Below are positions 29,011 to 62,038 of a stretch of DNA of 64,000 nucleotides, in pieces. The stretch lies in NCBI GenBank assembly GCA_035236585.1, contig CP141139.1, positions 17,562,990 through 17,626,989 on the forward strand, read 5' to 3'. The notes under the pieces were generated by a model that searched no databases, was not told where the DNA came from, and worked only from the letters and a program-made list of their open reading frames with translations. This DNA is from Warburgia ugandensis. Its lineage: Eukaryota; Streptophyta; Magnoliopsida; Canellales; Canellaceae. The number at the start of each line of letters is the position of its first letter. Position 1 is the first letter of the stretch. A program made the position numbers and the translations under genes.

Positions 29011-29019
29011 GACACAGTT

Positions 29020-29225
29020 TTAGTGAGTTAAGATTAAGTCTTATCGTGTTCGTATCATTTATTGGGTCAACCGAGAAAAGACACGCTCAAAATCGTGTAG
29101 TGTTCATGTCAACCATTAGGACTTGTCGTGTTGACCGGTTTGATACGTGACCTGTTAAAACTTCGTGTTGACTTGTATGACACGCAACTTGTTAAGACAT
29201 CGTGTTGGACCATATGATTCTTATA
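29020..29225. repeat. CGTGTC-rich terminus, ULP1 side, outer element (truncated)
   Basis: Repeated CGTGTT/GACACG motifs on both strands align with the reverse complement of 57310-57470 of the inner element. The final TAGGGGTGACAA tip is not present. Confidence 0.65.
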
Positions 29226-29229
29226 TAAA

Positions 29230-29902
29230 TATAAGACAGTTACTAAATAACTGTCCTATATTCTTTTACATTATATAGGACAGTTTCTTAATAACAGTCC
29301 TATATTTTAACTAATATAAGACAATTAATAAATAGCCGTCCTATATTTTTATAGGTTATATAGGATGGTTAATAAATAACTATCCTATATTTTATACGTT
29401 TTAACATATTTAACAGTGATAAATATCCATCCTATATTTTTATAGGTTCTATAGGATGGTTAATAAATACCCATTCTATATTTTTATAGGTTCTATAGGA
29501 CGGTAAATAAATAATAGTCCTATATTTTATAAGTTATAATAATTCTATATTTTTACTTATAGAATAGTTAATAAATAACCATCCTATATTTTTATAGGTT
29601 CTATAAGACGGTTTTAACCGTCTTATATTTTATACATTATAACAGTCATATACTTTTACTTATATAGAACTATTAATAAATACACATCCTATATTTTTAT
29701 AGGTTCTATAGGATGACTAATAAATAACTGTCCTATATTTTATACGTTATATAGGATGGTTAATAAATACCCGTCCTATATTACTTAAAAACAGAACCAT
29801 TACTCAAAATAGTCCTATAATCTTATAGAAATATAGGACAGGTTTTACCAACCGACCTTTATGATCTTCAATATAAGACCCTTTTTCAGTGACCGTCCTT
29901 TA
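29230..29902. repeat. Palindrome array 1 (ATAGGACGGTTA family)
   Basis: About 20 short inverted repeats of the form TATAGGACGGTTAATAAAT and ACCGTCCTATA, many degenerate, fill this stretch between the outer element's left terminus and its ULP1 gene. Confidence 0.9.
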
Positions 29903-30049
29903 TTATTCAACTATCTAATATTTACAGTTTACCTATACATTCTATTTTGTTGTTTGTTTCTTGTTGCTACCAACTTACCTATACATTCTTCCTATAGTTA
30001 TATTTATCAAAGTACATCAATCAACAACATGTACGTGAGTGTGACAAAA

Positions 30050-30800
30050 TAACACATTCACTCCATTCTTTATGTTATATTTTATATTTACATTTATTGT
30101 AATTGTACACATTCACTTCCAACATTGCAAATTTGCCCATTCTTAACTTCCCACCCATACTGTCATACACATGACATTGAATTGAACATTTGAACTAAAG
30201 AAAAATAGAATACATTTACAATTATTACACATTTGCTTCTAAGTTCAAACATTGCACATTTAACTTCCCAATATAGTACACTGACTTCACATTAAACTGA
30301 ACATTTGAGTAGGTGAACTAAACTAAAGAAAGCACACCCACATATAATACATTCACAACTCCATTATCTAGTGTACACACACACACACACACACACACTT
30401 ACTCCTCCATAGACAACCTCACATTATCACAACCCTATCTGCTTGAAGTCTTGAACACACCAACCTCTCATCATTCAAAATTTGAAATAAAAAAAGCACC
30501 ACATTGACACACACTTGAATCAAAAGAAAAATGGAATACATCCATAAAAAATGGACTTTTGTAACAAAATAACACATTCACTTTACTTCTGTAACCTGTT
30601 ACATTTGTAATCATTGTCACATTCACTTCCAACATTCTATAACTTCTCTATACAGTTCATATTGAATTGAATAAAAAAAGTACACCCAATCACCCATACA
30701 TGATACATTCACTATTCTTCATGGGCAGCCACATCCCATATGTTTGGTTCAAGACACTAACTTCTCTTCATTGAAAGTTTGAAACAAAAAAAGCATGTAC
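30050..30800. repeat. Degenerate direct repeats downstream of the outer ULP1 gene
   Basis: Blocks such as CACATTCACTTCCAACATT, CATTGAATTGAA and AAAGAAAAATAGAATACAT recur about three times at 170-300-bp spacing. A (CA)13 run lies near 30372-30398. No coding content. Confidence 0.55.
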
Positions 30801-32307
30801 ATTGACACATAGTATACTTCAATCAAAAGAAAAATAGAATACATCTATAGAAATGAACTTATCTTTGTATTATATTTGAGTAAATTTTTTACATGATTGA
30901 TACATTCATTTATATCATGGAACTACAAATTAAAACTCATAACATGATCTGTCCATTTCATTCTAATATCTTCTAGATCCAACTAGGAGTAACTATTGCT
31001 TCCTAAATATGCTAGTAAGAAACATATAATAACTTAGTTCAGACATGTAATCTTGGATTCAGTCAGAAAATATACAAAACTATAACATTGGTCAGTAAGT
31101 CTTATCTTTCTCAATTGCGAGATTATAAATTTATTATGAATGAGGGTTCCCATGTATCTGAGAACATAATACCCACACTCCCAATCGAATTTTTGTTTAG
31201 GGCACTGCACACCAATATCACCAAAGACAACAAAAAAAGTTCAAATATTATGTCAAATAAGTATAGGTTTTAAATTATAGTAAAGAGTCTAAAAAGCAAT
31301 AATCAGTAAACCTTACCTTGACATTCTTCCAATTGAGTTTTGTTGGGTGGTCAATACCTTCCTAGCGTTCCCGCTCAGCCCATTTATGCTAAGCACCACA
31401 CACATATAATTGAAAAGCATTAGATTATGAATATTATGATAGTTGCCACTTATCAAATGAATAGATATATTATAATAAAAGAAATAATAAAGACTTACTT
31501 GTTTATAATTTTCATCAGGTGTTCTCGAATGTGCACTCCACAAGAATCTAAAAACATTGCATGGCCACCATGCACATCTAAAGCCAGCAACATCCAATGG
31601 GACCTATAAAAATAATAATTCAATTATAAGTTCTCAAATCTTAACTGATATAAATATTCATGTGTATGAATTATGAAATTGAAGTGACATAATTTAGCAA
31701 CATATGTTATAACTTACCTGCTATTATAGGGAATCAATAAGGCTTGCCCCTTCGCACAATGCATGAGCCCAGAAATGATATCTTCACTTTGTTTGTTCAT
31801 AAGTCAAGGAACTTGTAAATGTCCTTGACCTCTAATCTTTGTAACTTATCATGCAAAGACCTACATTAGTAATTTTGGTTAATATTAAATAATTATCAAG
31901 TGTTATTAAAAAAGCAAGTAATGTTGCTTTGATTTGTAATAGTCTAATAGAGTAGTTACACGATGACATACCCGATATGGACGATGATGTACATGTATTC
32001 TAGTTGAGCTATATTACATATGGCTAAAAGGTTTTCCTTGAAGAGTGGAACATCAACCACGTCGTCTACAAGCACACCTGCCTATATCCTTACGAGGCTG
32101 ATTTCCCTATCTTTATTGACCAGTCTATACAGTCACCTTAACAGTGGAGGCATGTTAGGTGGAACCTCCACCTGATCTCTACACTATAGATGTAACATTT
32201 TAGAATTTAGTAATGAATATATACAACATATACTGTTATGCGATATATAAAAGAAGAGAGACAATGAGATCAAATTTTATCATACATCTAACATGATACA
32301 ACTATAC

Positions 32308-35300
32308 TGTCACGACCCCAATCCCCGAGGCCGCGATTAGGCTTAATCAAGCCTAACGATTGGCCGAGATAGGCCTACATGGCCTTGCTTTTTTTCTTCT
32401 TCTTTTTTCTATCGTAGCAGAAGTACTGAGAGAGGTAGGTGCTCTTGTCCTGTGCAAGTCACAGTTTACTAGTAAAATATTTTTCTCCTTTAAAAACCTA
32501 GTCTTACCAAAATTTCGGCAATCTCCCCTGTTTTTTGAACTTATGCATTTAACACATGCTATGCGGTTCACCTGATAGACAAATATAGCAATTATAAATT
32601 CCTGAAGGGAGACTCAGTCTCCATACTATCTATCATAATACGCCACTAACACATGCTTGTTTACTAGGAGTTCAAGTGAGTCTCATACATGCCCTTTCAA
32701 GTTAAAACACATAAGATGCATAAGGATCATTGTCAAAAAATAAGATATAACTCATATTTAGTGTCAGCACATATATACATACATATATATATACAATTCA
32801 AAATGCTACATCTTCAATCAAGCTTTCTTCATTTCACTCAACCCCCTTTCTCTTCTCAGCTTGACTAGTACCTGCAAAATAATACAGTGAGCTGCGAAGC
32901 CTAGTAAGGGAAAAGAACTAAACCCATGCATATCCAAGCATTCTTGTTGCTACGCTCAAAAGCACATTCAATACAACACAAGTATTTATTTTCATTTTTA
33001 ACTGGTCATCTACAAAGAAGTTAGCATGCACTATCAAGTAAGGCCTATGGGTATTAGAGCAGAATTGTAGTTTTCCCCCAAATTCAAATATGATGCAACA
33101 ATCATCGCATGCAAACAAGCACACCCCATAAGAATTTTCCATTTGTGTCCAACCACAAGACATTCAATGGATGAGTGACTAAGTCATGGACCTCATTCTA
33201 AAGTTAAATGCAAACCATAAGCGTTACATCCAACAAAGCTGTATACTCATTAATGATTTTCTTAGTAACATTAAACATGCTCAGCATTACACTAGGATCC
33301 AATAGTCATCTCCCTCAAGGATTACCATTTTGGGCAGCCCACTATGAGTATCATCATCAAGGCAGTCAGACCCTCAGGATTTACCATCTTGGGCAGCGCC
33401 AAAGTCAAGTTCTCTCAGGATTTACCATCTTGGGTGGCTCCACCTTAGTCGAAATCAACTAAGCAACCCTTTCCCTCAGGGTTTACCATCTTGGATAACT
33501 CAATATGCCAGCTCATCCCTCAGGGTTCACCATCTTGGGCGGCTCCACTGTGATCCCAAAAGACTAGGCATCCCTTTCCCTTAGGAATTACCATCTTGGG
33601 AGGCTCAATACCTGACAACTCATCCCTCAGGGTTTACCATCTTGGGTGGCTCCACCATGATTCCAAAGAACCAGGCAGCCCTTTCCCTCAGGGTTTACCA
33701 TCTTGGGAGGCTCAATACCAGACAGTCCATTCCTCAGGATTTACCATCTTGGGTGGCTTCACCTTAGTCGCAAGCGACCAAGTAGTCCTTTCCCTCAGGG
33801 TTTACCATCTTGGAAGGCGTCATCATAGCTTACTGGGCAACCCTCAGGGCTTACTATCTTAGGCTTGACTATTTTGTAACAGTTTGCATCATTATAACAG
33901 TTAAGCATAGTAAATCAGACTATAGCATGACCATTTCAATAAGAAATTACAATTTCTATCATCCATTCAACCAAGGTGACAATATATTCATTTTACACAA
34001 GCATAAAGTTAATTTCAATAGAACATAACAACAATAATTTAAAGAATGAAAGGGTTTAGGGTCCTTAGCTGCTCTCAAGGTACAACTTAAAATTTAACTA
34101 CCAACATTGTTCACGCTGCGCTCAATCTCTGCAACAAGTACGAGTTTTAAGTAAATTTCATAATTCCATGGAATTTTTTTTTCTATAATCAGTTCTAGCT
34201 CTTTACTCATAAAGTTCTTAATCTAACCTCATGTATCTATATCAATGATTTGTACACCAATTGGTTGCTATCCAATTGGGCAACACCATTGGTCTTATAT
34301 GAACGGTTTAGATCAAGCACGTACATTTAAAAGTTTCAATTTCCAACCTTTTAGGTAAGTTATTTCACAATTCGATGCTTTTAGCCATAATTCATTGCCT
34401 GATCTCCGTTCTCGACCTCCGATATTCGTTGATCGAGTATTGGACAACTAGATGGGATCTCCCATCAATTTATGCATAATTGGTTAGTCATTTCTATGAT
34501 AATTCATGACCAATGATTACTTGGAGTTATATTTGACCTGAATTTACCTCCCGATCACATTTTTAATGGTCGGATGTTAAGCTCTCAAAATTTTTGTATG
34601 CATAACCAATCTTGTAATCCTAATTTCGTGGACCAATAGATTCCCAATCGACGATCCGTTTTCGCGGATGAAAAGATCACACTCGATTTGTCCATATCTG
34701 AAAATTTTTCATTTTTCACATTTTTAGGGGTCGTCGGAAAATGTTGCTATCGCCGGAGAAGGTGACCAGATTCTGGTCGTCGCCGGCGACCTCATTTTTT
34801 AGCGAAATTTCACAAAAATGCTCAAATTTTCCTAAATTTTTGTTTTCTAATGTTTTCCCCTTTCGATTTTTGCTAAAACTATCATTTTTTGCTGGATTTT
34901 TCAAGGGTTTTTGAACTTACCCTAGGTGCTGATTTTGCAATTTTCGATGTCGTTTCTTGCCGGATCTTTGTGAAACCAAAGGGGTTTCACTCAAAAATGT
35001 CTAAGAAACAACTTGAATGGTTGGATTTTCAATCCAGTTATGTTCCTCCCACTGCATTTCCTAAATCCGACGGTGTTTTTCACCGTCCAGTTCTTCGGGA
35101 AATACAATACATGCATTGAAGAAGAAGGGGAAATGGAGAAGAGTAGGGAGAGGTGGAAGCTTACCCGGGTCGAGCGTGTAGCAGTGTGACCCAAATATGG
35201 TAACTTGCCTCCCTTCTCATCGTAGTTGAAGCTAGGTTGTGTCTCGCCAGAAAGAATGGAGTTAAGGGAAACAAGGGGATGGGGCCAGGCGAGTGGGCAA

Positions 35301-35701
35301 GGAACTTGCTGGAAAGTGATCCAAAGAGGGGGAGAACTAAGGAATGAGGGGTTTGCCAGGAAATGAAAGGAAGAGGGTTGCGGGCTTTGGCTCCCTCTTC
35401 CTGTGTTGCAAATGCGTGGGAGTAGAGATCCAAGCAGTGAGTTCCACTCCCGCGTGTAGAGCTCCTCCCACATGGCCCTTTGGCTTACACGCATTAGAGG
35501 GGGGTGCCATTATCAATCTTGACCCCCTCTACGTCAATGGTAAAATCCCTGGGTCTGTCGCTCCCGATCTCTGTTTCGCGCATTCTTGATGTCGTTGGAA
35601 AGCTCTCTCCGAGCACAATATGATAAATGACTTTGCATCATTGATTTCTAATGTTCTTGATTTTTACATTTTAATCCACTATTTAGGGCATGAGTGTGAC
35701 A
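32308..35701 (+). mobile_element. Solo LTR (3.39 kb) of a probable Gypsy-type retrotransposon
   Basis: Starts TGTCACGACCCCAATCC and ends GAGTGTGACA, flanked by ATAC on both sides (32304-32307 and 35702-35705). The homologous inner element at about 55,235-55,270 is uninterrupted and confirms the insertion point. It contains a minisatellite and no coding domain. Family assignment is inferred from the LTR start, not from a polyprotein. Only 4 bp of duplication is visible where 5 is usual. Confidence 0.85.
33290..33880. repeat. Minisatellite inside the solo LTR
   Basis: About ten copies of a unit with core CCCTCAGGGTTTACCATCTT then GGGNGGCTC, repeating every 60-65 bp with a higher-order period near 125 bp. 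The frame at 33596-33862 is a by-product of this repeat. Confidence 0.9.
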
Positions 35702-38252
35702 ATACAAGTATATATAAATACCTGGAAAGGCTGGGATGGGGCTAAAGTAGCCACTACAACAGAATTTGCTAGCGGGGAGGTTTGCTTCAATGGCACCTTG
35801 TGCTGCTTCTTGTGATCTGACATGTTACAGACAATATTAATTAATTAACAATTTAGAAGGACTTAAAAAAGGTAGCAGAAAATGATGTCATGACATCACA
35901 TATTATATATATATATATATATATACCTTAGAATTGGATATTATTGGTTTGATAAAATCCTCTGGCCATCTCACATGATAACCAATTGTATCCCCAATAG
36001 TTTGAATATCATCCTCTTATATTGAAAATGGAAGGGAAGCATCTGGTTGGATGGCGACAGTAATGCACACACGCTTAGTGTGTGGATGCATTAACTTACC
36101 ATGTAAGGTGGTGGAAGTCATGGACCGAACCTCATACAGTGTTGCCACAACCACATAGTTTTCAAATGTATTTAGCTGCAACATGCACTGACCCACCTGC
36201 ATTTGAGAAATAACATATATATAATGATTAGTGATAAAAATTGAAAATGTTACTAAATAATTAAATATTGTAAAAGTAAACATGCCAATATACATACCTC
36301 ACTGCTTGGAACATCACCTTCAAATACTTGCTCTGCTGCCTCTTCTTCTAATTGAGGAGTACAACTATTGTCATATTGAGCTTACATGAGGTTCTTCTGC
36401 CACTATGGAATTCCTTCAACAAATAATTATTCACCTTGCTATATATCTCCATAACAGTTTGCTCCTTCCATTCTTCCAATTTTTGTAGTGTTGAAGCCTT
36501 TTGTTTCAAGCAAAACTTAGAAGGAATAACGCCGCGACCTTAGCCCCTTACTCGGCCAGGGTACTCGTCCTTGTTTCCCATTGCCCTATATAGAGTCCCT
36601 GTAGTTGTATTTTCTTAAGTCAACTCTTCCTGCACATGTAAATATCATAACATGATCAATTCCCTATTATATATGTAATATTTATATAATGCAAGAGTAT
36701 AAAAGTATAAAACTAGGCAGTAGGCACATAAAATAAAAGTATAAAACTTAAATCACTTACAATTCTTGATGCAATTTCTACAGTTATTTCATTAGTAAAG
36801 GTCTGGGAGTTACGCCCTTTCGAATGTGCCATTTTCTAAAGAAGAGCACTGTCAATGAGCTCCATTGTCCTAGCCTTCTTTTGCTGTTAAAAGAGACACT
36901 AAGTCAGAGTTAATGAAATAAAAATCTACTATGATTAGACATAAATGAAATGTCACATGATATACTTACTTCTTCTGCCTCTAAACATGCATAGCTAACC
37001 CTTGAAATGTAGTGATGCATATGATTAGTTGCATGCACCATTTGTCCTTTTATACGCTTTGCTTGGACATCAAAGTAATGTAATCAAAATACAATCAACT
37101 ATAATAATTAGAGGAATCAAAATATAGCTTGGCTAATTCAAGTTGTGATTACCTCAAAATCAGGAGATAGCCTAAACTGTATAAATTGGCTTCATGCTTT
37201 CTGGTCAATGAAGCAGGAATACAAATGAGGAACCATGTTAAGCCTAGAAGGATTATTGACATTAGGAAGTAAGTACTTCCTTACAAGCTCACTCTTCCAT
37301 TTCCTCCATTGTTCACCGACTCCCTACATTGCCTACTTCTTGCACTCATCAGATGCGGCAAAGGCAGACTACAGAACAAAAGATGAAGCAAGTTAGTGAG
37401 TAGTGACTTAGTGTATCATATACAAAGAAAAACAATATATATGGGACATATTATGTTATATATAGGAAGAATTTACATATCTTGACCATTTCCCATATCG
37501 TATCTTTGACTGTTGGCAACACATGTCTCCAATCAGTCACTAAGACAAGCACCATACTTCTAACAGTTTAGCATATGACGCTAGCATAAGCATATGCACT
37601 ACCACCTATCGCCTGGTCTCTACTTTTGAATTGTATAGTCTCCTTTATTCCCTTTGATGATCTCTTATTTATATGCTTTATTTTTGTTAGCTCTCTACCC
37701 TTTCTCTTGACACGTGGTGTTACTGGTATACATGTGCTCGATTGTTCTACTTCTATGTGTTATTCTTGTTCTACCTATTCTTATACTACTTCATGTTGTT
37801 CTTTCTCTAATTCTACTTCTTCATGTTCCATGTTTACTTCACAAATTGTAATGACTCCATTTTTGGTAATCTTGAAATCCCATGTTGGTAATGAACAGTT
37901 CACTTTTTGAGATAAGGGTATTTTAGTCATTTCACTGTTCACCCTAACTAGACCCAAAAATTTGGTCCTTAAAATGGTACCCTTAGGTGCGTCTCGGAAA
38001 AAGGAATCCAACAAGACCAGAATTACCCAAAACGGAGTTAAAATGAGCAAGTTATGGCCCTTGAAGTTCAAGGGCAAAATTGTAATTTAATTTAAAAACG
38101 AATTTGGCTAGCGAAAACAGGGACCCGTTTTGATATGGGCACCCCCCTTCTTCCCAAACATACTGGAGGTTTCTAAAATGGCGGCGTGTAGGGGAGAAAC
38201 CACCACCATTCCATGGCGGTAGAAACCCCCTCCAAAACCCTCTTCAAGCTCT

Positions 38253-38260
38253 ATAAATAG
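38253..38260 (+). promoter_or_regulatory. LTR TATA box
   Basis: TATAAATA in the context AGCTCTATAAATAGAGCTC. It is conserved in the other LTRs of the array (ACAAATAG in one) and in the nested 2.6-kb LTR as TACAAATA. It is the probable promoter of the TRIM-like element. Confidence 0.6.
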
Positions 38261-38488
38261 AGCTCTTGGGCGCCTCTAATGGTAGCCCAAAACTCTAGCA
38301 AAAACCCATCTGGGAGCAGTGTGCAAGAGGAGTTTTGGGCTGTTGATAAAGGGATGGTGGTCTCTCATGATAACAATGCGTTTTCCCCTACAGGGGAAGA
38401 ACAAAGCTGTGACTGCTGGCAATGTATGGGCGCCGTCAGTGGAAAGCGGACAATATTGTTACTATGGGCAGACCCCGGTCGTTACAGT

Positions 38489-38500
38489 TGGTATCAGAGC
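38489..38500 (+). other. Primer-binding site complementary to initiator tRNA-Met
   Basis: TGGTATCAGAGC lies two bases after the LTR end. The same site follows the second and third LTRs at about 42045 and 42957. Confidence 0.9.
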
Positions 38501-39023
38501 ATGGTTTGACATTACTCACAGCCCAGTTATGAGGAGAATAACTTATAATCAAGTTTCATCCATGAAAGATTAAGGGGTAATAGGATCACACATACTAAGG
38601 TCTTGTGAATTATTTTGTGATTTGGAAGAAGAGACTTGGGGACCGGAGTCAGAAATGCGAGAAAAGTACCTCGAAATCTTTTGACTGTATATATCGTAGA
38701 ATTTCGAGGGAGAAATTCCCCTAAGGGGGTAAGAATGTAATGACTCTATTTTTTGTAATGTTGAAATCCCATGTTGGTAATGAACAGTTCACTTTTTGAG
38801 ATAAGGGTATTTTGGTCATTTCACTGTTCACCTTGACCCAGAAATTTGGTCCTTAGAATGGTACCCTTAGGTGTATCTCGAAAAAAGGAATCCAACAAGA
38901 CCAGAATTACCCAAAACGGAGTTAAAATGAGCAAGTTATGGCCCTTTGAAGTTCAACGGCAAAATTATAATTTAATTTAAAAACGAATTTGGCCTAAGAA
39001 AACAGGGACCTATTTTGATACGG

Positions 39024-41667
39024 TGTAATGACCCCAATTTTTGTAATATTAAAATTCCATGAAAAGTTCAGTTTTGAAGATAAGGGCATTTTAGTCATTT
39101 CACTATTCACCTTGACTGAACCCAGGAATTTGGTCCTAAAAATGTTGCCATTAGATGCGTCTCGAAAAAAGAAATCCAACGAGACCAAAATCACCCAAAA
39201 CGGAGTTAAAATGAGCAAGATATGGCCCTTTGAAGTTCAGGGGCAAAATTGTAAATTTTACAAAAAAATGGTTTAACCTGCAAAACACAGGGGCCCGTTT
39301 TGATACGAGCACCCCTTCTTCTTCAACCTCTAGAGGGTTCTAGAACGGCGGTGATTGGAGGAGAAATCATCGCCATTCTAGAGGTTTCTCCACCGCCATT
39401 CAAAGGCGGTGAGAGCCCCCTCCAGAACCCTCTCTTAGCTTTACAAATAGAGCTCTTGGGCGCCTCTAATGGAAGCCCAAAACGTTGAAGAAAAACCGTT
39501 GAGGAGCAGTGACCAAGAGGAGATAACGTGGAGAGAAAACCAGCCACGAAGCAGGTATGCCCAAAAACTCCCCAAACCCATCTCACCCATAGTCCTAGGC
39601 TCAGTTTCCCTAGGTTTTTGCATGAAAATCCATGGGGAATAGGCCTCTAGGGAGTCACCAAGGACCCTGGGACGTCCCCAGGGCTGCACTGGTTCCTCAG
39701 GGATGAACCAGAGCATCCCAAGGACGCCCCGGTCCCCCAACAACTGAAACGCCCCAGACGGACGAGACGCGTCGAACGCGTCTGAGAGGAAACCAACAGG
39801 CGCGTTCGTAGACGCGCCCGCTAAAGAGGAAGACGGGCGGAAAGTATCGCGCGTCTGCAGACGCACTCGCTGAGGCGCACGCCACAGACGCGCAGTGCGC
39901 TAGCACTGTGGGTTCTTTTCATTCCTTAAGGAAGCCAGGGCGCACAATGCAGTCGCGCAGCGCCTTAGCATTCCGTTTTTTTCATTTTTAAGACTCTATG
40001 TACATACGACACTAAAACGCTTATAACTTGAGATCTAGAGCTCCGATTGAGGCGCCGCAAAAGGCGTTGTGTCCGTGTCAATAGCACGGACACATATAAA
40101 CTATAAAATCCCTGATCAAGACCCAATCAAAGGTGGGCATGACCCTTAGAATGGGATGGTAGCGTGTGGCCACTAGAACATTGGAAAACTGAGGATACCA
40201 AGGCCCAATTAGGACCTTAGGACACCCATAGGCATAGGGATGGACACCTAATGCCTAAGTAATAAGACCAAGTACTCTAAAACCCATAAAAGATAGGCCA
40301 AACTAACCTTGATTCCCCAAACCATGATCAGGAGCGTCCGAGGACAAAAGGGTTAGCGCGACCTAGCCAAGTAGGTGCTCTATCACAATTAGATTCTTTT
40401 AAAAGAACTATTATTGTTTTGAGAACATATGTTTTAAATATATGACTTGATTTGCATGACTTAATTCAGCATGCATGATAAATGCTTTGTACATAGCCGT
40501 GTTTTGAAATGATTGCATATACATTATGCACATATATGTTTTGCAAACAAGTGCATACACTGCATGATTTAAGTACTTGCAAAGATTGCATGTCTTTGAG
40601 GGTTGCCAAAAGACGCTGGAGTGCCGAGGGCCAGGCAGTTGTGAGGGACCCAAAGAGGACAAGTTTTAAAAAAGAGGTTTTGGCTTATTTAATCTTATGT
40701 GATTTGGGCAAGTAAGCCCGTGGGTGCTATGCCGAGGGGTCTGGGTTGGCCACCCGGCCTCTACAACTATTAGGTGGATGGGTACAACGCCCAAAAAGAG
40801 GCAAGTCCCTACGTCACTGCATGTGGTACAGGGGGCTACCACTGGTGTCACGGCACTGGGTCGACGTGTCATAGGCCCCATGGAGGCTATGACCGAGTGT
40901 CCTCAGGTACCCGGGGACCACACAGTGAGGAGGTCGTGGGCATAGTGGACCCTATGGTTTGATGATTTATGTGCATTGCATATGGCATGATATGAGGTTG
41001 GTCGACCATACCATACTAGAGATCCATGAGTTGGATTCCATGAAGCATTTTATGCATATCATGATGTTATGATATATATGTATATGATACTTTCGATTTT
41101 GGATTATATGATCCTTTAAGTCGTTAGTATTTTAGTTTGACAATGGATTTTGATATTGATATTGAACTTGAGAATTCAGACATGCACATGTTTTGGAAAG
41201 TGCATATGATTTTAAAACATCGCATGCATTATAAAACTAGTAGTGATAGACTCCTACTGAGTATAGTATCTACTCACCCTATCCTTAACATTTTTCAGGA
41301 TAATTCCATCTACGAGTAGAGGGCATCTATATTAGTGCTACAGGCAAGTGAATCAAAAAGGAAACAATCATATATGTAAGTAAACTCTCTACCCTTTGGA
41401 CATGTATTTAATTACAGTTGAAATTTGTGTCTTTGTATTTGGAAAGACCTGGGGAAAAATAATTATGATTTCTAAAGTTTTTCAAAAAACTACTTTGGTT
41501 GTTGTGAAGACAAATGACACTCGGGGTTTTCAAAAATGAGTTTAAAACTAAAGGTTTTCTGCTGCATTGCATGGTTTTTATAGAATGGTTTTCAAATAGG
41601 GATGCATCCCGCCTTAGGAAATTAGGTATTGCATTTAAAAATGCATGAGAAAACTCGGGTCATCACA
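39024..41667 (+). mobile_element. Solo LTR (2.64 kb) nested in the second LTR of the array
   Basis: Starts TGTAATGACCCCAATT, ends GGGTCATCACA and is flanked by the 5-bp duplication TACGG (39019-39023 and 41668-41672). Its first 480 bp or so are homologous to the array LTRs, including the GAGCTCTTGGGCGCCTCTAA block. The rest is unique and GC-rich around 39,700-39,960. No protein domain is seen. Confidence 0.92.
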
Positions 41668-44440: not shown

Positions 44441-44444
44441 GAAA

Positions 44445-45590: not shown

Positions 45591-45641
45591 TTGGTAAAAA
45601 AACTGCTCCCAAATGAATGGAGCCAACCCAACCACAAAACA

Positions 45642-49411: not shown

Positions 49412-49582
49412 GTTAGAAGGGTTGAACTTGAAGAAGATATCTGGAGAGGAAAATCTGAAACAGATGTAAAATTGTAAATTTTAAAAGCAACTTGGGTTGG
49501 CTTGGATTGGGTTGGGTTGGGGATGGAGCCTTTAACCGATTCAGGCGATTCTATTCTGTATATATTTGATTGATGCTATTTA

Positions 49583-50030
49583 TATAAGGCGGTTCGATAA
49601 CAACAATCTTATAATATAACAAAAATTAAAAGACAGTTAATAACAATCGATATTACAGGACGGTTAATGAATAATTGTCCTATTTCAATAAAAATATAGG
49701 ATGGTTATGACGTAATAGTCCTATAATAAGAAAACCAAATAGGACGGACGGTTAACACATAACCGTCCTATATTTATCCAACATACTGATATAGGACAGT
49801 TATACATTAACCGTCCTATATTGTATAAATATAGGACGGTTATGCCCTAATCGTCCTATTTTTACGTAAGAATATATGATGGTTATGTACTAACCGTCCT
49901 ATTTTTATGTAAGAATATAGGACGGTTATGTACTAATCGTCCTATTTTACACATAAACATAGAGAACGGTTACAAATTAACCGTCCTATATATTTTGTAA
50001 ATATAAGACTGTTCTCATATAACCATCCTT
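49583..50030. repeat. Palindrome array 4
   Basis: Hairpins such as ATAGGACGGTTATGCCCTA then ATCGTCCTAT lie upstream of the inner hAT transposase, so they could be part of its promoter. Confidence 0.9.
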
Positions 50031-51785: not shown

Positions 51786-52008
51786 ATTATACGACGGTTA
51801 TGCAACAACACAACAACCGTGAACCATCTACCTTTCTAATAAATAAATAAGACTTAAATAACCATCCTATATAACTTATAGGATGGTTATAAAAAAAAAC
51901 CGTCCTATATATATTTCATTATATATTAAAGGACGGTTATTTAAAAACCGTCCTATATTGTTCTATATATTATAGGACGATTATTTAAAAGTCGTCCTAT
52001 ATTGTTCT
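51786..52008. repeat. Palindrome array 5
   Basis: Hairpins such as AAAGGACGGTTATTTAAA then AACCGTCCTATAT lie upstream of the inner Transposase_24 gene. Confidence 0.9.
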
Positions 52009-52019
52009 ACATATCGTTT

Positions 52020-53135
52020 TTCACCTTGATCAGCCCTAATTTCAATCTTCCAACAGTCCAACCTACTGAGAAGGTGAAAACAACCATTCCTCTTCGATCT
52101 TTCACAGATATAAGCAAAAAAAGGTTTGTATTTATGAATTTTAGCATATGTATACAGTTTGTGTAAAAAACGTAAAAACCAGTACGTTTTTTCATTTTTG
52201 TTGTTGTTTGTTAATGTATTTTCTATAGATCTTGATGGGTTTTAGTCTGACAAGGTGAAAAAGACCATTCCTCTTCGATCTTTCACAAATCTAAGCAAAA
52301 AAAGGTTTGTATTTATGAATTTTAGCATATGTATACAGTTTGTGTAAAAAACGTAAAAACCAGTACGTTTTTTCATTTTTGTTGTTGTTTGTTAATGTAT
52401 TTTCCATAGATCTTGATGGGATTTAGTCTGACAAGGTGAAAACAACCATTCCTCTTTGATCTTTCACAGATCTAAGCAAAAAAAGGTATGTATTTACGAA
52501 TTTTAGCATCTATATACAGTTTGTGTAAAAAATGTAAAAACCAGTATGTTTTTTTTTTTTGTCAACTATTTTCGATAGATCTTGATGGGTTTTAGTTTGA
52601 GAAAGTGAAAACGACCATTCCTCTTCGATCTTTCACAAATCTAAGCAAAAAAGGGTATGTATTTACGAATTTTAGCATATGTATACAGTTTGTGTAAAAA
52701 ACGTAAAAACCAGTACATTTTTTTCATTTTTATTGTTGTTCGTTAACATATTTTTCATAGATCTTGATGGGTTTTAGTCTGAGAAGGTGAAAACGACCAT
52801 TCCTCTTCGATCTTTCACAGATCTAAGCATAAAAAGGTATGTATTTACGAATTTTAGTATATGTATACAGTTTGTGTAAAAAATGTAAAAAGCATTACTT
52901 TTTTTCATTTTTGTTGTTTTTTGTTAACGTATTTTCCATAGATCTTGATGGGTTTTAGCCTGAGAAGGTCAAAATGATCATTCCTCTTCGATCTTTCACA
53001 GATCTAGGCAAAAAAAGGTATGTATTTTCGAATTTTAGCATATGTATACAGTTTGTGTAAAAAATGTAAAAACCAGTACGTTTTTTCATATTTTTTGGTT
53101 TTTGTTAACTATTTTCCATAGATCTTGATGGGTTC
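52020..53135 (+). repeat. Six tandem ~180-bp units that each look like a mini-exon with splice sites
   Basis: Copies of CCTCTTCGATCTTTCACA fall at about 52091, 52271, 52450, 52620, 52802 and 52984. Most units carry an acceptor-like TATTTTCCATAG|ATCTTG, an exon-like stretch with GGTGAAAACGACCATTCC, and a donor-like AAAAAAAG|GTATGT. No long frame runs through the repeats. They lie 0.7-1.8 kb upstream of the Transposase_24 ATG. Confidence 0.85.
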
Positions 53136-53838
53136 TAGTTCTATGTGTATAAGAAACATTCCATTTAGTTCTTTGCTCTAGACTTGAGTTTGTTTTTAGG
53201 TTTTTTTTACTGTTTTTCCGAAGAAATCAGTTACGAAAATAAAAAAAAAGTCGTTGTTTTTTGTATTTCTTCATTGAAACTTATTTCTATCCACATATAG
53301 AGCTTTCTCATGTTGTGTATTCATGTGTGATAATGTTTTCATCTTCTTCTTCTTTTGTAATTTAGTGTTATTTTTTAATTTTTTCAAAAAAAAAAGTTAC
53401 AAAAATTAGGAAAAATTTGTTCTTTTTTTATATTTATTAGTTAATACCTATTATTATCCACGTATATAGCTTACTCATGTTTGAATCTTCAGGTATTAAT
53501 GATTTTTAGCTAATTTTTAGTATTTTAGCTAATCTTTAATGACAAATAATATAATTTTGCGCCTTAGGCAGTCAAGCTCCAGGGCCGCCCTAGGCTCCAG
53601 GCGCACCCCTTTGCGCCTTGGTAAGCCTCAAACCTTTAACTACATATCGGACAGTAGTGATCCGACCCTACTACCCTAGCAAGTTAGCAACCCTAATCAA
53701 CCGAGGAATTGGCTGTCAATTTTGTCCATAAATTGAGATTGTAAATCCTTCTCTATGAATCTATGATTAAACTATAAAAACACTTTTCAATTTTCTTGTC
53801 TAACTGTAGTCATTTTCATTTTTATTTGTGAAGCAAAC
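53136..53838 (+). promoter_or_regulatory. T-rich leader region of the inner Transposase_24/ULP1 gene
   Basis: T-rich stretches to 53,570, then a GC-richer block (GCGCCTTAGGCAG ... GGCGCACCCCTTTGCGCC) and the leader just before the ATG at 53839. The last 40 bases match the same region of the outer copy. No other coding signal. Confidence 0.4.
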
Positions 53839-56753
53839 ATGGAGCAAGTAGAAGAGGTACAAGTAGAACAATTACAACACATAGAAGCAGAACAATCAAG
53901 GCTATTAAGCACATGTCCATCAGTAACACCACCGGTCAGTGTCAAAAGAAAGGTCAGGGGGAGGTGCCCAACACAAATGGATCGTATAAATAAGAGAACC
54001 TCAGTTGGAATAAAAGAAATGGTATAGTTCAACAATAGAGGCCAACCGATTGGTGGTACTGCACATGCCTATGCTAGCTTCATATGTTGCACTGTTAGAA
54101 GACTTGTGCCAGTATCAGTGACTGATTGGAGACTTGTATTGCCACAAGTCAAAGATTCAATATGGGAAACAGTCAAGGTATGTAAATTCTTTGGCATATA
54201 ACATAATATGTCCTTTATATTTATATATTTTGTTTTTGTTTGCATATGAATCACGATACACAAAGTTGCTACAATACTCACTAGTAAGTTAGTCACTTTA
54301 ACATGCTTCTTCTTTTGTTTTGTAATCTGCCTTTGATGTATCTGATGAGTGCAAGAAGCAAGCATTGCTAGGAGCTGGTGACGCTTGGAGGAAATGGAAG
54401 AGTGAGCTTGCAAGGAAGTACATACTTCTAAATTCCCATGATCCTTCTACACTTAACATGGTCCCTCAGTTGTATTCTTGCTTCATTGACCAAGAAGCAT
54501 GGAATCAATTTGTATAGTATAGGCTATCTCCTTATTTTGAGGTAATCACAACTTGAACTAGCCAAGCTAAATTTTAATTCATGTAATTATTATAATTGAT
54601 TGTATTTTGATCACATTACTTTGATATCCAGGCAAAGTGTATAAAAGGACAGAAGGCGCGTGCATAGAACCATATGCCACACCACCTTTCAAGGGTTGGT
54701 TATGCACGATTAGAGGTAGATGTAGTAAGTAGATCATGTGACATTCCATTTGTCTAATCATAGTAGATTTTTATTTATTAACTCTGACTTAGTGTCTTTT
54801 ATTACAGCAAAAGAAGGCTGAGACAACGGAGCCCATCGACTGTGCTATTCTATGGAAAATGGCACATTCGAAAGGGCATAACTCCTACACCTTTGCCAAC
54901 GAGACAACTACAACAATTGCTTTAAGAATTGTAAGTGGTTTAAGGGATGATGTTGAAACTGTTGAGGATGCAATTGGATATCATGTGTGTTGGCCAGATA
55001 AACACATAAAACCAATAATATCCAATTCCAAGGTACATATATACTAACTGTAGTCACGACCTCATTTTCTCCCACCTTTTTTTAAGTCATCCTAAATTGT
55101 TAATTGATTAATATTGTCTGCAACATGTCGAATCACCAAAAGCAACACAAGGGGCAATTGAAGCAAACCTCGCTACCGGCAAATTCTGGCATAGTGGCAA
55201 ATATAGTCACATCCCAACCTTCCCAGGTAGTACTAGTTATATATATTTGCATAGTTGTATCATGTTATATGTGAACTTGAACGATGCCTCAACTAACAAG
55301 TTCAAAGCACTTGTTAGGTACTCACTACTCACAAGTCAGTAGTCACAATGTTATATTATAAAATATTCTAATTTTACCTCACTGTGTCTCTTCTTTTATA
55401 TATGCTAGTATACCAATATATGTTGTATATATTCATTACTAATTTCTAAAATGTTACATGATTACATCTACAGTGTAGGGATCAGGTGGAGGTTCCACCT
55501 AACACGCTTCCATTCCTAAGGGTACTGTATAGACTGGCCAATGAAGGCAACACAATGAACCCTGTAAGGATAGAGGCAAGTGTGCTTTCAAACGATGTTG
55601 TTCAGGTTCCACTCTTCAAGGAAGACCTCTTAGCCATATGTAATATGGATCAATTGGAGTACATGCACATCGTAGTTTATATAGGGTACGTCGTGTAACT
55701 GCTCTACTCTATTAGAGTTAAGACTTACGAATCAATGTAACATTACTTAATACTTGCTTTTTTAATAATACTTAATAATTATTTGACATTAACCCAATAA
55801 CCCAAAGACTAGAGGTCAAGGACATTTACAAGTTCCGTGACCCTTCTCTTGTCTTTCGATGGACTATTTGCTCGCGGACAAACAAAGTGAAGATATCATT
55901 CTTGGTCTCATGAGTTGTGTGAATGGGCAAGCCTTACTGATTCTCTACAATAACGGGTATGTTGTAACATATGTTGCTTAACTATGTCATTTTAATTTCA
56001 CAATTCATACACATGAATACTATATCAGCTAAGATTAGAGAATATTCAATTGAATTGTTATTTTTATAGGTCCCATTGGATGCTGCTAGCTTTGGATGTG
56101 CATGGTGGCCATGCAATTTTTTTTTATTCATGTGGAGCACACATTCGGGAACACCTGATGAAAATTATAAACAAGTAAGTCTTTATTATTCCTTTTATTA
56201 TAATATAACTACTCACCTGGCAACTATAATAATATTCATAATCTAATGCTTTTCAATTATGTGTGAGTAAAGTATGGTATAAATGGGCTGAGAGGGAAGG
56301 CATTCACCACCCACCAAAACTCAACTGGAAGAAGGCCAAGGTACGATTTACTAAATACTGCTCTTTAGACTCTTTAATGTAATTTTAAACCTGAACTTAT
56401 TAGAAATTATATTTTGAAAATTTTTTGTTGTCTTTGGTGGCATTGTTCTGCAGTGCCCTAAACAAAAATCAGATTGGGAGTATGGATATTATGTTCTTAG
56501 ATACGTGAGAACCCTCATTCACAATGGAGTTACAGTCTCACAATTGAGAAAGGTAACACTTAGACTTACTGACCAAGGTTACACTTTTGATTTGTATATT
56601 TCTTGACTGAATCCAAGATTACATGTCTGATCTTTGAACTAAGTTATTATATGTTTCTTGCAGGTGGATTTGGGAACCAAGAGTTACTCCCAGTTGGATC
56701 TAGATGATATTAGAATGGAATGGACAGATCATATTATGAATTTTAATTTGTAG
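53839..56753 (+). pseudogene. Transposase_24 plus ULP1-like protease gene, inner copy, catalytic residues lost
   Basis: Exon pieces give the Transposase_24 region (MDRINKRTSVGIKEMV; GQPIGGTAHAYASF; WRKWKSELARKYIL; KMAHSKGHNSYTFANETT), then ULP1-type protease parts (VEVPPNTLPFLRVLYRLANE; SHWMLLALDVHGGHAIFFYS; DWEYGYYVLRYVRTLI), ending ...MNFNL at 56753. In-frame stops at 54025-54027 and near 54516 break it. The catalytic His is kept, but the Asp position is Tyr (TAT 56125-56127) and the Cys position is Tyr (TAT 56481-56483), unlike the outer copy. It runs toward the right end of the inner element. Confidence 0.8.
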
Positions 56754-57173
56754 TTCAGTGATGTAAATGAATGTATATTATCATTCATGTATATACATTT
56801 TACTCAAATATAATACAAAGATCAGTTCATTTCAATGGATGTTTTCTATTTTTCTTTTGATTGAAGTACACTGTTTCAATGTATGTGCTTTCTTTGTTTC
56901 AAACTTTCAAATTTCAATGATGTTATTGGGAAGTTGGTGTTTTGATCAATAAATGGGTTGATCATCAATTTTCAATGATGGCTTAGATTAGCAAATGGGT
57001 TGTATCATGTACATACAGATACAGTATGGGTGATACTGAAGCAGATAACTTTGGAGAGGGAGGCATATCTGGAGGTTGAAAATTGAAATTACTAATACTG
57101 AAGTTGTAGTTATGATTCATATGAATATGATACCAAAATAAAAACAAATTTATACCAAAATAATGACAAATAA

Positions 57174-57290
57174 GACGGTTCGAGAAGAACTGTCCTATAT
57201 AACTTAGTAATATAGGACAGTTCTTTAGTTCTTGAAGAACCCTCCTATATTACATGAGTAATATAAGACGGTTATTTAGGAACTGTCCTA
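57174..57290. repeat. Palindrome array 6
   Basis: Three hairpins of the AAGACGGTTCGAGAAGAACT / GTCCTATAT type between the inner ULP1 gene and the right terminus. Confidence 0.85.
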
Positions 57291-57299
57291 TATTTTCAA

Positions 57300-57527
57300 C
57301 CATTCCATAGGTTAGAATCGTGTCAAGGTGATGAGTAAATAGGCAGCGTGTCAAACAAGTCGACAAGAGGGGTCAAATTGATTGACTCAAACACAACACG
57401 ATTTTTGGCGTGTCATTTTTGAGTCACCCGAAAATGACATGAACACGATAAGACTCGACCCGAACCCGCTAAATTCGTGTCGGGTTCGAGTCATGTTATC
57501 GTGTCGTGTCATATTTTGTCACCCCTA
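57300..57527. repeat. ULP1-side terminus of the inner element
   Basis: CGTGTC/GACACG-rich sequence ending ATTTTGTCACCCCTA. It aligns with the outer element's left end. Confidence 0.78.
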
Positions 57528-58029
57528 ACCTTAAAGCATAAGGAAACAAAGATAAAGGCTAATTGGCTTAAGCACATGATATAGGAATAGAATTTCCATT
57601 TTTCCATGCTAACAAATGAGTAAATGACTAAAATTAAATCTTAGAGTTTGAATTTGAAAAAAGTAAGTTAATAATAATTTAAATTTGCAAGCCTTAACGA
57701 CCTAAGTCAAGTGTAGCTAAGCGGTCCACATTTCAACTTATCAAGGTTGAGTTCTGGTCTTCAAACCACTTCCTTGACAAATTTTTCTATCTCACGCCCG
57801 ACACCTGCTTTTAAGTTTTTGCCGCCTCTTTGGAAATAGGAAAATGGTCTCACGACTACATAGCCCTGCAAGGTTGCTACACTTCCGATGTCAAAACGAA
57901 CAGGCACATTCCATTAAATTGGAGGAGGTTGTCCAGCGGGAGGCATTCCGGCTCAGACATACACAGCTCACAAACACACACATCGTCACACTCATAGTCA
58001 CCTCATAGGCATAGCTCACATAGACTAAC
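57528..58029. other. Spacer of the outer element, right of the inner insertion
   Basis: Starts with ACCTTAAA, the right target-site copy. A stretch at 57,690-57,790 has weak A-box/B-box-like motifs (TAGCTAAGCGGT, GGTTGAGTTCTGG) and might be a decayed SINE. No gene is seen. Confidence 0.45.
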
Positions 58030-58650
58030 CATCCTTTATGATTATAAAAATAAAGGTGCAATTATAAAATACCCGTCCTTTATGTTTCAAAATATAGGAG
58101 AGTTCAAAATTACTAGTCTTATATTTTATAAATACATAGAAAGGTATCAAACAACTATCTGTCATTTATGTTAATCAAATATAGGACAGTTCTAAAAAAA
58201 ATTGTCCTTTATGTTTAAAAAAAATATAGGACGTTTTGTGAATAACGGTCCCATATTATGTAAATATATTGTTATAGGACAAGTTTCAAATAACTGTCCT
58301 ATATTTTTGTAGATATATAGGACGAGTGTCTCGTAACCGTCCTATATTGTGAGAGTCCACTCCAAACCTCACATGACCACCGTGACATTAACTAATAACT
58401 ATATATAGGACGGGTCTGATATAACTGTTCTATATTTAAGAAAAATATATAGGCAGTTGTTTATTACCCATCTTATATGTTTCTCCAAATTATAGGACTA
58501 TTATGTTTTAACCGTCCTATATTTATAATTAAAATAGGACAGTTATTCATTAACTGTCCTATACTTTTCAATAATATAGGACGATTAGTTAATACCCATC
58601 CTATATTGGGTGATATTATAAGACTGTTGTCATCAAACCGTCCTGTATTA
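58030..58650. repeat. Palindrome array 7
   Basis: About a dozen degenerate hairpins such as TATAGGACGAGTGTCTCGT then AACCGTCCTATA, upstream of the outer hAT transposase. Confidence 0.9.
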
Positions 58651-58802
58651 GGGTTTTTATTTACCTGTTATTTACAAACTCGAGGCGAGAGAGAGGAATA
58701 CATTTAGAATTTAGAGCTTTTGCGTGAAATGGTGAAAGCCCTAGTTGTTTTTACATCTCTTTTAGATTTTTCTTCCCAGATATCTTCAACAATATTTACA
58801 CA

Positions 58803-61428
58803 ATGAGCACACCTACAGCACCATAGGTATGTGTTTCTTATTAGTTCTTTCTTTATCATTCTGTTTCTCTCTTTATTCCTTACTCCCTTGTTTGTGTGAT
58901 TCTTTATATAGTTTGATTATTATTTATCTGATTCTATGTTTCTTTGCTTGTTGCATGTTCTTATTAGCATGACCTTGGCTTTAATGAAGTAATTGGTGCT
59001 TACTATGAACTAAATTTTGCTTGTCAATTGCAATATAAGCACAAGTTGGGAACAATGATGTATTTGATAATTTAAATATGCTGCACGACAATGATGAAGA
59101 TGATGAGCTTGCTGATTTAGAGAATGTGGAGTTAGTTTCAAAATCTAACAGAGGTAAAAAACATAGAAAATTGATGTCTCCAGTTTGGAATTTTTTTTAA
59201 CACCTTCCGATATCAGAAGATGGAAGGCAAAGGTGTAAATGCAAGAAGTGCTCCGCAATATATATTTACGATAGCAAATTTGATATAGGTAATTTAAAAC
59301 ATTATTTAAAGACTTGTCAGTAGAGCTCGTCTCATGATATAGGCTAGTTGCTTTTATCTCAAAGTCAATGGAGTATATCACTAAGTTCAGACAAGTTTGA
59401 TCCAGAAGTTTTTCGTCAGCTAGTTGTAGCTGTAGTTGTTATGCATGATTTGCCTTTCCAATTTGTTGAGTATGATGGAATTAGAGCTGTACTAAAATAT
59501 TTGCGTGCAGATTTGCATTTGATTAGTAGAAATATAGTAAAAGCAGATATTCTAAGAATGTATAAAAGATAAAAAAGAAAGATAAAAGAAATGTTAGAGT
59601 TGGCACTTGATTGGATAAGTTTGACATTTGATTTGTGAGCTTTTGGTATCACTGATGGTTATATAAGTCTCACAGTACATTTTCTAGATAGTGAGTAGGT
59701 CTTACGCAAGAGGATATTAAAATTTTGTTTCCTACCACATCCACATAATGCAATATCATTAGCAAAAAAAGTATATTCATTATTGGTAGAATGAGGGATT
59801 GAGAAAAAGATTTTTTCAATCACTTTAGAAATGCTTCTGCTAATGATTCTTCTGTTGAGCTGTTAAGGTATCATTTGAACATCAGAAACACTCTTATTTG
59901 TGGTGGAGAGTTCCTCATCTTTGTTATTGTTGTTATGTTTTGAATTTGATTGTGCAAGATGATTTGAAAGAAATAGATGATGCTATTCAAAAAATTTGAG
60001 AGAGTATCAAGTATGTCAAAGCATCACAAGGTAGAAAACAAATTTTTTTAAAGTGTGTGAATCAAATGTCAGTTGAGACCAAAAAGGGCTTAAGGCAAAA
60101 TTGTCCTACAAGATGGACTTCAACCTATATGATACTTGAAAGTTCTCTTTATTACCAACGCGCATTTTATTACTTAAAATTAAGTGACTCAAATTATAAG
60201 CATTGTCTTTCTATCGATGAATGGGAAAAGGCTGCAAAAATTTCAAAGTTTTTGGCTGTTTTTTATGATGTACCTACATGTTTTTTGGATCCAAATATCC
60301 TAGAACAAATATCTACTTTCGGGCAGCATTTGTAATTTATCTGAGTTTAAGACAATACATGAGAAGTGATGACAACTATATAAAGAGTATGTCCACCCAA
60401 ATGTTTACCAAGTTTTCAAAGTACTGGTCCTAATTCAGCATCATTTTAACAATTGCATGTGTGTTGGATCCTCGATATAAGCTCTCCTTTGTGGAATTCT
60501 CATACAAAAAAGTGTTTGGTAATTGTTGCTTGGAGTTTGCTCAAGTTCGGAAAAAGTTATTCTCTCTCTTCAATGAATATATGATTACGAGTTTTCCTAA
60601 TCCTTCCTCATCTTCATCTATTGCTAGAGGTAGTGCTCTTGATGTTGATGATAGGCGGCAGAACTTGTCATATAGTTAAGAAGTTTTAGATGTCATGAAG
60701 GTAATTATATTTATAATTATATCTTTTATTATATGTCGCTTAGGATATTAAAATAAAGTTTATTATAAATTGTCTTACATTAATTTGAATAATATAATTA
60801 CATTTACATTAAGAATTTGATTCATTTGAAAGTGAAGAATGTTCTTTGGCTATGCAAAAATCACAATTGGAGCTTTATTTGGATGAACTAAGGTTGGAAG
60901 AGTCAAAGCTAGACACTCTTGCATTCTAGAAAGACAATCAATACAAGTTGGTTGATTAATAATCTCGTCTCATAAAAAAAATATTTTTATAATATTATTT
61001 GCATTTATATTTGATTAAAATATTGATTTCAGGTATCCTGAACTTAATGCCATGTCTTGTAATGTCTTGAGCATTCATATATCTACAGTTGCATCAGAGT
61101 TTGCTTTGAGTGTTGGTGATTGGGTTCTTGACTAATATATAACTGCTTTAAAGCTAGATACAGTGCAAGCATTGATTTGTGTAAGAGATTGGTTATATAG
61201 ATTAAAAGGTAATAATTTATAATTCTATATTTAAACTATATTTTATGTGATACATATATATTATATTTTTAAGAGCTTAGTAATGACTAATGTATGTTAT
61301 TATATATAATTGTAGACTCTGTCATTACAGTTGCCATGGATGAGCTTGCTGAGGGCATTGTAAGTATAAATAACAGTGCAAGACCACCTCAACCAACTGA
61401 AGACTTTGGAACAATTCATTTTGATTAA
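58803..61428 (+). pseudogene. hAT-family transposase, outer copy
   Basis: Clearly the same gene as at 46837-49411: MSTPTAP, then SPVWNFF, RCKCKKC, VEYDGIRAVLKYLRADLHLI, GYISLTVHFLD, VLDPRYKLSFVEF and VASEFALSVGD, ending ...IHFD at 61428. It is more decayed, with a dozen or so stops and several frame breaks (for example 59560-60060 and 60340-60460). It shares the TAA at 59198-59200 with the inner copy. The first exon also reads into TAG directly at the donor. It runs toward the right end of the outer element. Confidence 0.88.
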
Positions 61429-61669
61429 TTTGTACTTGTATAATTTTTATAACTTATATTAATTTGCTTTGTTTGATATCGATGGAAGTGGATTTCTCTC
61501 ATATGCTAGTTAGTCCCCCAATCATTTACTATTACGATTATTTGATTCATTTGAATACTATTATCCTCTTTTAGGACCTTATTAGTAGTGTAAAGTTTTA
61601 TATTGCTTCTGAATAAAACATTACAGTAACTTTATAGGTATGGATAAGGGTTCACTAATAGTATAATAC

Positions 61670-62038
61670 TAAATCGTGTCATGTCAGATGGGTCGTTCCA
61701 TGTCACTAATTATCGTATTACCGAGTTGTGTCGTGTTGACTCGTTTAATAAATAGGTCGTGTTAACGAATTGTGTCGTGTCGTGTAACCCAAACATGAAT
61801 AATTCTCATAATTGTGTCACTCGAGTCGTGTTGTATCGTGTCACTCAAACACAACCCAGTAACGTAATCGTGTTACATGAGTCGTGTCATGTAGATTTTT
61901 TAAGAACCTGGTCGTGTTCAAGTCACAGGTTTTTGACATGACTATTAATTGTGTCGTGTTTGTATCGACCCATATACTCTAATGGGTTAATCCCAACACG
62001 ACACGAACACTACCTGCTAACCCGAATTGCCAACCCTA
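61670..62038. repeat. hAT-side terminus of the outer element
   Basis: Dense GTCGTGTCGTGT and ACACGACACGAAC motifs, ending AACCCGAATTGCCAACCCTA. The reverse complement begins TAGGGTTGGCAATTCGGG, nearly identical to the inner left end. The flanking GTCATGTG (62039-62046) would be its duplication, but the partner is lost. Confidence 0.75.

Follow-up and report, generated by a model that had tools for sequence, protein, structure and literature searches.

A hAT transposon family of Warburgia ugandensis that carries a Transposase_24-ULP1 gene beside its transposase gene

In plants, hAT elements are the textbook example of a transposon with one gene. Here we describe a hAT family of Warburgia ugandensis with two genes, found in a 64,000-nucleotide stretch (the window) at positions 17562990-17626989 of contig CP141139.1 (C14), and followed through a genome of 1.12 Gb in 14 contigs. 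By every feature tested it is a hAT family: it makes 8-bp target duplications, has short inverted tips of the hAT type, and encodes a transposase with BED, RNase-H and dimerisation domains. Its second gene encodes a Transposase_24-ULP1 protein. That both genes belong to one element is close to certain, and the account that we favour as a whole, an autonomous-type, Ac-like hAT family of ~13.3 kb with two divergently transcribed genes, is very probably correct. The family is large, and two-gene copies whose ends are intact occupy many sites in the genome.

The window contains two copies, an inner one that is nested, in inverted orientation, inside an older outer copy, and is colinear with it. 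In each of them the hAT and Transposase_24-ULP1 genes are divergent, as the earlier note on this DNA had claimed. The inner copy is complete. It spans 45374..57527 (12,154 bp), starts with TAGGGGTGGCAA and ends with TTGTCACCCCTA; the tips on both sides are TAGGGGTG, with 8/8 agreement when inverted. Target duplications flank it at 45366..45373 (+ strand, GCCTTAAA) and 57528..57535 (+ strand, ACCTTAAA, 7/8 in comparison with the left one). The ends of the family unit can be written TAGGGGTG...CACCCCTA. Matches to the motif TAGGGKTG are by themselves weak evidence, the window holding 9 against 3.3 expected, a count that 1 of 100 shuffles also reached.

Both genes of the inner copy are decayed. 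The hAT transposase gene at 46840..49212 on the minus strand still gives matches to the RNase-H domain PF14372 (2.9e-24) and the dimerisation domain PF05699 (4.9e-19). In a young copy on contig C8 (L025), a joined gene model adds a zf-BED domain (3.2e-4, 21.1 bits with a cut-off of 20.6) to PF14372 (2.3e-27) and PF05699 (1.1e-26), and the hAT gene of the family is a canonical hAT transposase. The Transposase_24-ULP1 gene of the inner copy lies on the plus strand at 53839..56753, and lacks ~0.6-0.9 kb at 54944 that is present wherever both pieces are found among the other copies listed. The non-coding centre between the genes (49258..53845), part of which is retained in short copies, includes 181-bp tandem repeats at 52066-53139; a search of 49258-53847 in six frames at E 0.01 gave no Pfam domain.

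The linkage of the two genes recurs across the genome. The inner hAT half (46622-49258) matches at least 39 other places at 90-94% identity, in a search at a threshold of at least 90% from which the best 40 places of 915 candidates, the window's own included, were taken; the ULP-half search was treated similarly, with the best 39 scored places, again with the window's own, of 4284 candidates. Beside the window, at least three places (C7:29.23 Mb, C2:76.23 Mb and C11:31.86 Mb) appear in both listings, with order and strand unchanged. Of the other places listed, 20 of 39 for the hAT half and 20 of 38 for the ULP half were probed, and these were the best-scored rather than randomly drawn. When hAT places were probed 5.6-7.1 kb toward the ULP side, the ULP gene was found in 14/20, and two (L044, L045) match the sequence directly upstream of it. 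Probing of the ULP places toward the hAT side revealed the hAT gene in 13/20 and the centre in one (L078).

The ends were read in 14 copies, picked because both halves had already been located. In 11 of them the two tips are present, together with an 8-bp duplication that agrees at 6/8 or more. The duplication is 8/8 in L019, L020, L021, L024, L025, L028 and L031, 7/8 in L026, L027 and L029, and 6/8 in L030 (L019 and L029 are read with a one-base shift); the chance of an exact 8-bp match is 1 in 65,536 per copy. These 11 copies span 9.6-13.5 kb, with ULP-gene sequence between the tips (partial in L024). Of 29 other loci whose hAT side was read, 27 also have a recognisable tip there. The earlier note had proposed a count of copies that hold both genes between tips and 8-bp duplications, and linkage and ends together speak for such copies.

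The number of tips in the genome indicates the size of the family. With up to 3 mismatches allowed, a 28-base hAT-side tip has 1,246 occurrences and its ULP-side counterpart 2,118, with 0 occurrences of the reversed control in both cases. A 12-base tip pattern was dropped as too loose (434 matches, compared with 180 for its reversed control). Each listing gave the first 100 places, and both cover C1 and C2 up to 95.16 Mb; for the 62 of 100 hAT tips in this range, we looked among the listed ULP tips for an opposite partner no more than 35 kb away. Among the matches listed, 40 of the 62 could be paired; the 22 unpaired tips mean little, because the listings hold exact matches only. The pairs fall into two size classes, 18/40 at 3.8-5.9 kb and 16/40 at 12.9-13.5 kb, with single pairs at 7.4, 7.7, 16.4, 16.8, 25.9 and 30.0 kb. 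A young group accounts for 9 of 30 hAT loci, at ~98-99% identity. Of the 18 short copies, six (L097-L102) were probed at +1.8 kb, and all six have centre sequence (within inner 50377-51099) at the position of the hAT gene. Because the centre stands where the hAT gene is expected, these short copies are non-autonomous as regards the hAT gene, and a whole ULP gene could hardly fit into their remaining length. Retention of the centre in 6/6 short copies would be unexpected if the ends alone sufficed, and the centre may hold a cis-acting signal.

The domains of the second gene were demonstrated on an intact copy, and this evidence comes from the protein of one copy, L025, in a joined gene model. 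Its ULP gene has 13 exons, 12/12 introns with GT-AG borders and zero stops, and encodes 774 amino acids, with Transposase_24 (PF03004, 6.1e-15, 56 bits, cut-off 28.7) followed by Peptidase_C48 (PF02902, 1.7e-7, 31.8 bits, cut-off 20.7). This is the domain order of open reading frame 2 (ORF2) of CACTA elements, and it does not make the element a CACTA. In Pfam, the short exons of the decayed inner gene, taken one at a time, matched neither ULP nor Transposase_24. A genome search with PF03004 found none among 12 candidates, which does not imply absence, short exons being the presumed cause; the search with PF02902 gave 9 exon-level matches. Comparison by eye places the nearest PF02992 (CACTA transposase) match, among 150 listed, ~250 kb from the PF02902 matches, so that no CACTA-borne gene was usable for a tree. 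In a protein database, no relative of the 774-amino-acid protein was found at E <= 0.001 among 8000 candidates scored; its C48 part aligns with SENP5 (Sentrin-specific protease 5) at 3.6e-6.

The protease part appears to have changed in the lineage that amplified. L025 retains the His and Cys of the His-Asp-Cys triad, and also the Gln. At the codon of the catalytic Asp, the outer copy has GAT, and 5/5 copies of the amplified lineage that were read have TAT; the TAT codon is in frame, and thus Tyr, in the inner copy, L025 and L028, and the frame is shifted in L092 and L093 by a change in the T run just before this codon. Since the Asp codon has been replaced, the protease activity is likely to be weak or absent in the amplified lineage, as judged from the codons. 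The C48 domain is nonetheless constrained relative to the outer copy.

Both genes have been under purifying selection between the young and the old copy. When L025 is compared with the outer copy, the ULP gene has an omega of 0.47 [0.37-0.61] and hAT exon 2 one of 0.37 [0.27-0.52], in each case with 0/1000 bootstraps at or above 1; codons at which the outer copy has a stop were left out (16/711 in the ULP gene). By part, the ULP gene has omega values of 0.59 for the Transposase_24 exons (7/1000 bootstraps at or above 1), 0.38 for the linker (0/1000) and 0.46 for the C48 exons (3/1000). The earlier note had suggested a comparison of the histories of the two genes, and these agree to a considerable extent: distances in the hAT half and in the ULP half are correlated over 12 copies (Mantel r 0.86, 0/5000 permutations), and still over 11 copies when the outer copy, represented by an ULP piece of 323 bases only, is omitted (r 0.66, 1/5000 permutations).

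A number of observations weigh against the two-gene account. Four of the 20 hAT probes (L041, L042, L043, L046) and six of the 20 ULP probes (L059, L062, L063, L064, L074, L077) met no inner-element sequence, so that some copies may be single-gene or disrupted; L041 has sequence in common with L040, where the ULP gene is present, L046 likewise with L044, and L064 with L041. Three of the 14 end-sampled copies gave no duplication, the ULP tip having been missed in L015 and L032 and L010 being without the hAT tip, and the 11/14 result bears on the ends and not on linkage, because the copies were picked for having both halves. Many copies contain stops. A copy in which the two genes are both intact was not seen, because L025, with its intact ULP gene, has a private one-base loss that shifts the frame of its hAT gene. 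In closer pairs, the selection signal is mixed with neutral decay: omega of the hAT gene between L025 and ten genome copies varies from 0.41 to 1.44, the top value belonging to the youngest pair, and omega of the ULP gene between L025 and the inner copy is 0.71, with 59/1000 bootstraps at or above 1. Finally, the two halves do not always have a common history. The young group (L020, L021, L025, L028, L031) is 0.03-0.06 from the other amplified copies in the hAT half and 0.08-0.13, about twice as far, in the ULP half. This suggests that halves were exchanged between subfamilies, or that rates are uneven, and either has to be allowed for.

Could the window simply bring together two separate elements, a hAT and a CACTA, that are adjacent or nested? 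CACTA transposases are common in this genome (PF02992; the best 150 scored of 5074 candidates, all of those listed being over the cut-off), and one of the two genes does bear a CACTA-type domain pair. We nevertheless rejected this reading and consider it extremely improbable, because the 8-bp duplications and the size classes rule it out in the copies examined: one hAT tip pair and one 8-bp duplication enclose both halves in 11 of the 14 end-sampled copies, and the 13-kb size class is tight. The earlier note had regarded CACTA tips around the ULP module as fatal to the two-gene model, and a CACTA/TAGTG tip pair with a 3-bp duplication around this module was found in neither window copy. Transposase_21 (TNP2) was not detected in six frames of the inner centre, the part that was scanned. 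Mutator-like elements (MULEs) have target duplications of 9 bp; a MULE transposase with such a duplication, as expected of VANDAL or KAONASHI elements, was not found, the family having a hAT transposase and 8-bp duplications instead.

If the element is thus a single unit, its second gene could still be a passive passenger, captured by the hAT element in the Pack-type manner and hitch-hiking without a role. Gene-piece capture has been published for the grapevine hAT family Hatvine-6 (PMC2528002). The loss of the catalytic Asp codon in the amplified copies read, and the existence of short copies without the hAT gene at the probed site, would also fit. We think it unlikely, in view of a gene that is complete in one young copy, with 12 GT-AG introns and zero stops, and of an omega that stays below 1 in 1000/1000 bootstraps against the old outer copy, with values below 1 in all three parts. 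Less easily dismissed, but still improbable in our judgement, is an origin outside CACTA, either as a free-standing helper module handed on among plant DNA transposons, for which CACTA would merely be the first place of description, or as a gene native to the hAT lineage. The occurrence of ULP1 in MULEs, CACTAs and Cryptons points in this direction, and a parallel is provided by TET/JBP genes, which have been passed among many fungal transposon lineages, hAT included (PMC12730594). Against it, Transposase_24 followed by Peptidase_C48 is the order reported for CACTA ORF2 (PMC8978399). The earlier note had held that a hAT element took up a CACTA-type module and moved with it. That the two form one mobile unit is borne out by linkage, tips and duplications; from the domain architecture alone we infer that the gene came from CACTA, and we also infer that it arrived when the hAT frame already existed.

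The tips of Ac are short and of the TAGGG type. The two-gene family resembles Ac-type plant hAT elements (e.g. Hatvine, PMC2528002) in its TAGGG-type tips, its 8-bp duplications, its transposase with BED, RNase-H and dimerisation domains, and its short derivatives with matching ends. It differs from them in having a second full gene and long internal palindrome arrays, and its ~13.3 kb exceed the 2-5.5 kb of the fixed-length grapevine hAT families (PMC2528002). With CACTA elements that have an ORF2 (Jozin, PMC8978399; ULP in Cactavine, PMC2528002) it shares a second gene with the identical two domains in the same order, as ORF2 can carry Transposase_24 and then Peptidase_C48 (PMC8978399). Unlike CACTA elements, it lacks CACTA tips, has 8-bp rather than 3-bp duplications, and has no Transposase_21 that could be found in the centre. 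VANDAL and KAONASHI MULEs with an ULP1-fused VANC gene (PMC13317346, PMC10398659) are alike in combining a transposase with a second gene that has an Ulp1 domain, and in the tandem repeats of their non-coding parts; the Warburgia family differs from them in its hAT transposase and ends and in Transposase_24 in place of VANC, and for it an anti-silencing function is putative. Fungal transposons with TET/JBP genes, hAT7 among them (PMC12730594), offer another case of a possible epigenetic accessory gene on hAT and other superfamilies, with a different gene, different hosts and 7-bp duplications. In grapevine, MULEs and five families of CACTA elements are reported to contain ULP domains, and PIF and hAT families have made other captures (PMC2528002); C48 peptidases are present on some oomycete Cryptons (PMC3212892). 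In searches of the open literature, no paper among those listed joins hAT with ULP1 or Transposase_24 in its title or the start of its abstract; subscription papers and Repbase reports lie mostly outside this coverage. The second gene is of a kind that we have not found reported for hAT.

Two sets of repeated words may be related to the working of the element. TCGTGT/ACACGA words are clustered at the four ends, with 11 and 13 at the hAT ends and 6 and 5 at the ULP ends, in 0.4-1.0 kb, against a background of 2 in the 29 kb at the left of the window and 0 in the 2 kb at its right; in the inner copy, clusters lie in the hAT-side tip (45374..45573) and the ULP-side tip (57320..57527). AGGACRGTT words occur 39 times in the window and are confined to the two elements, in palindrome arrays close to the ends and in the centre. 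In the inner copy, TATAGGACGGTT...AACCGTCCTATA arrays are located on the hAT side (45640..46021), in the centre (49654..50030 and 51857..52014) and on the ULP side (57170..57296).

hAT transposases cut and paste at the ends of their elements and generate 8-bp duplications, and TNPA of En/Spm aids transposition. In the Warburgia family, the transposase would cut and paste the element at its TAGGGGTG ends, making the 8-bp duplications. The element has been mobile as a single unit and has produced short copies that share its ends. By analogy, the tip-proximal TCGTGT clusters are putative sites of transposase action, and the Transposase_24-ULP1 protein might be a helper in trans that binds the non-coding AGGACRGTT palindrome arrays. 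The bound helper could either aid transposition, like TNPA, or oppose silencing, like VANC. As the catalytic Asp codon is replaced, the second protein of the amplified lineage would probably act by binding rather than as a protease. A helper or anti-silencing role of the second gene is a tentative proposal, with the odds slightly against it. More speculative still is the complete picture of a two-protein hAT system, in which a tip-cutting transposase has a probably protease-dead, array-binding partner that shields the element from silencing or builds the transposition complex.

VANC proteins bind the tandem-repeat non-coding regions of VANDAL elements and induce the loss of silent marks (PMC10398659). 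Some VANC genes include an Ulp1 domain, and a 2026 review calls the precise function of ULP1 in VANDAL elements unknown (PMC13317346). The second gene of the Warburgia family has an Ulp1 domain as in these VANC genes. If true, the two-protein hAT system would be the convergent equivalent of the VANC-ULP1 system of VANDAL MULEs, and would point to one helper module that has been passed among unrelated transposon superfamilies. A large and recently spread hAT family with a selected second gene of the CACTA type suggests the passage of a helper module between superfamilies whose transposases are unrelated. The two-gene 13-kb copies, the short copies, the copy with Asp and the lineage with Tyr form a natural comparison for the role of ULP1 in transposons.

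The outer copy is older and more disturbed. Its hAT-side part (57536..62038) contains remains of the transposase gene at 59006..61640 on the plus strand, which are 83% identical to inner 46622-49258 over 2,688 columns. Its ULP-side part (29011..45365) holds later insertions or expansions, and includes remains of the Transposase_24-ULP1 gene at 30771..37791 on the minus strand, with the catalytic Asp codon retained (FLDSCG); this region corresponds to inner 53846-56910 in three main blocks of 77-79% identity, separated by other sequence. The earlier note had described both termini as shared by the two copies. This holds for the hAT-side ends at 45374 and 62038, where the outer copy keeps TAGGGTTG. 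At the ULP side the alignment stops at 29011, corresponding to inner 57481, so that the outermost 46 bp are missing, and no TAGGG tip is present at 29015. The right-flank octamer of the outer copy, GTCATGTG, does not occur in 28400-29100, and hence no target duplication is demonstrable for this copy. As its ULP terminus and duplication were not found, the claim that both termini are shared rests on the other genome copies. Apart from that terminus, the earlier note described the two copies correctly.

Some further repeats lie within or near the outer copy. Between its ULP gene and the inner insertion, 37847-43843 holds G+C-rich tandem units of ~890-910 bp, which are also present upstream of another ULP copy (L062) and may therefore belong to the centre of an older subfamily; a Pfam scan of 37800-42302 found no domain. 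A 107-bp tandem repeat with ~4 copies (33414-33818) is part of the sequence that interrupts the outer ULP gene, and a scan of 32300-36002 also gave no Pfam domain. Beside the element there are long, host-gene-like frames on the minus strand at 27627-28772 and 14168-15052, of which one presumably resembles an ABC-transporter permease and one has what we take to be a PHD-finger-like stretch. Dispersed repeats of ~110-155 bp (11325-11479, 19236-19390, 24803-24957, 22742-22850 and 63301-63409), present in L042 too, look unconnected with the hAT family.

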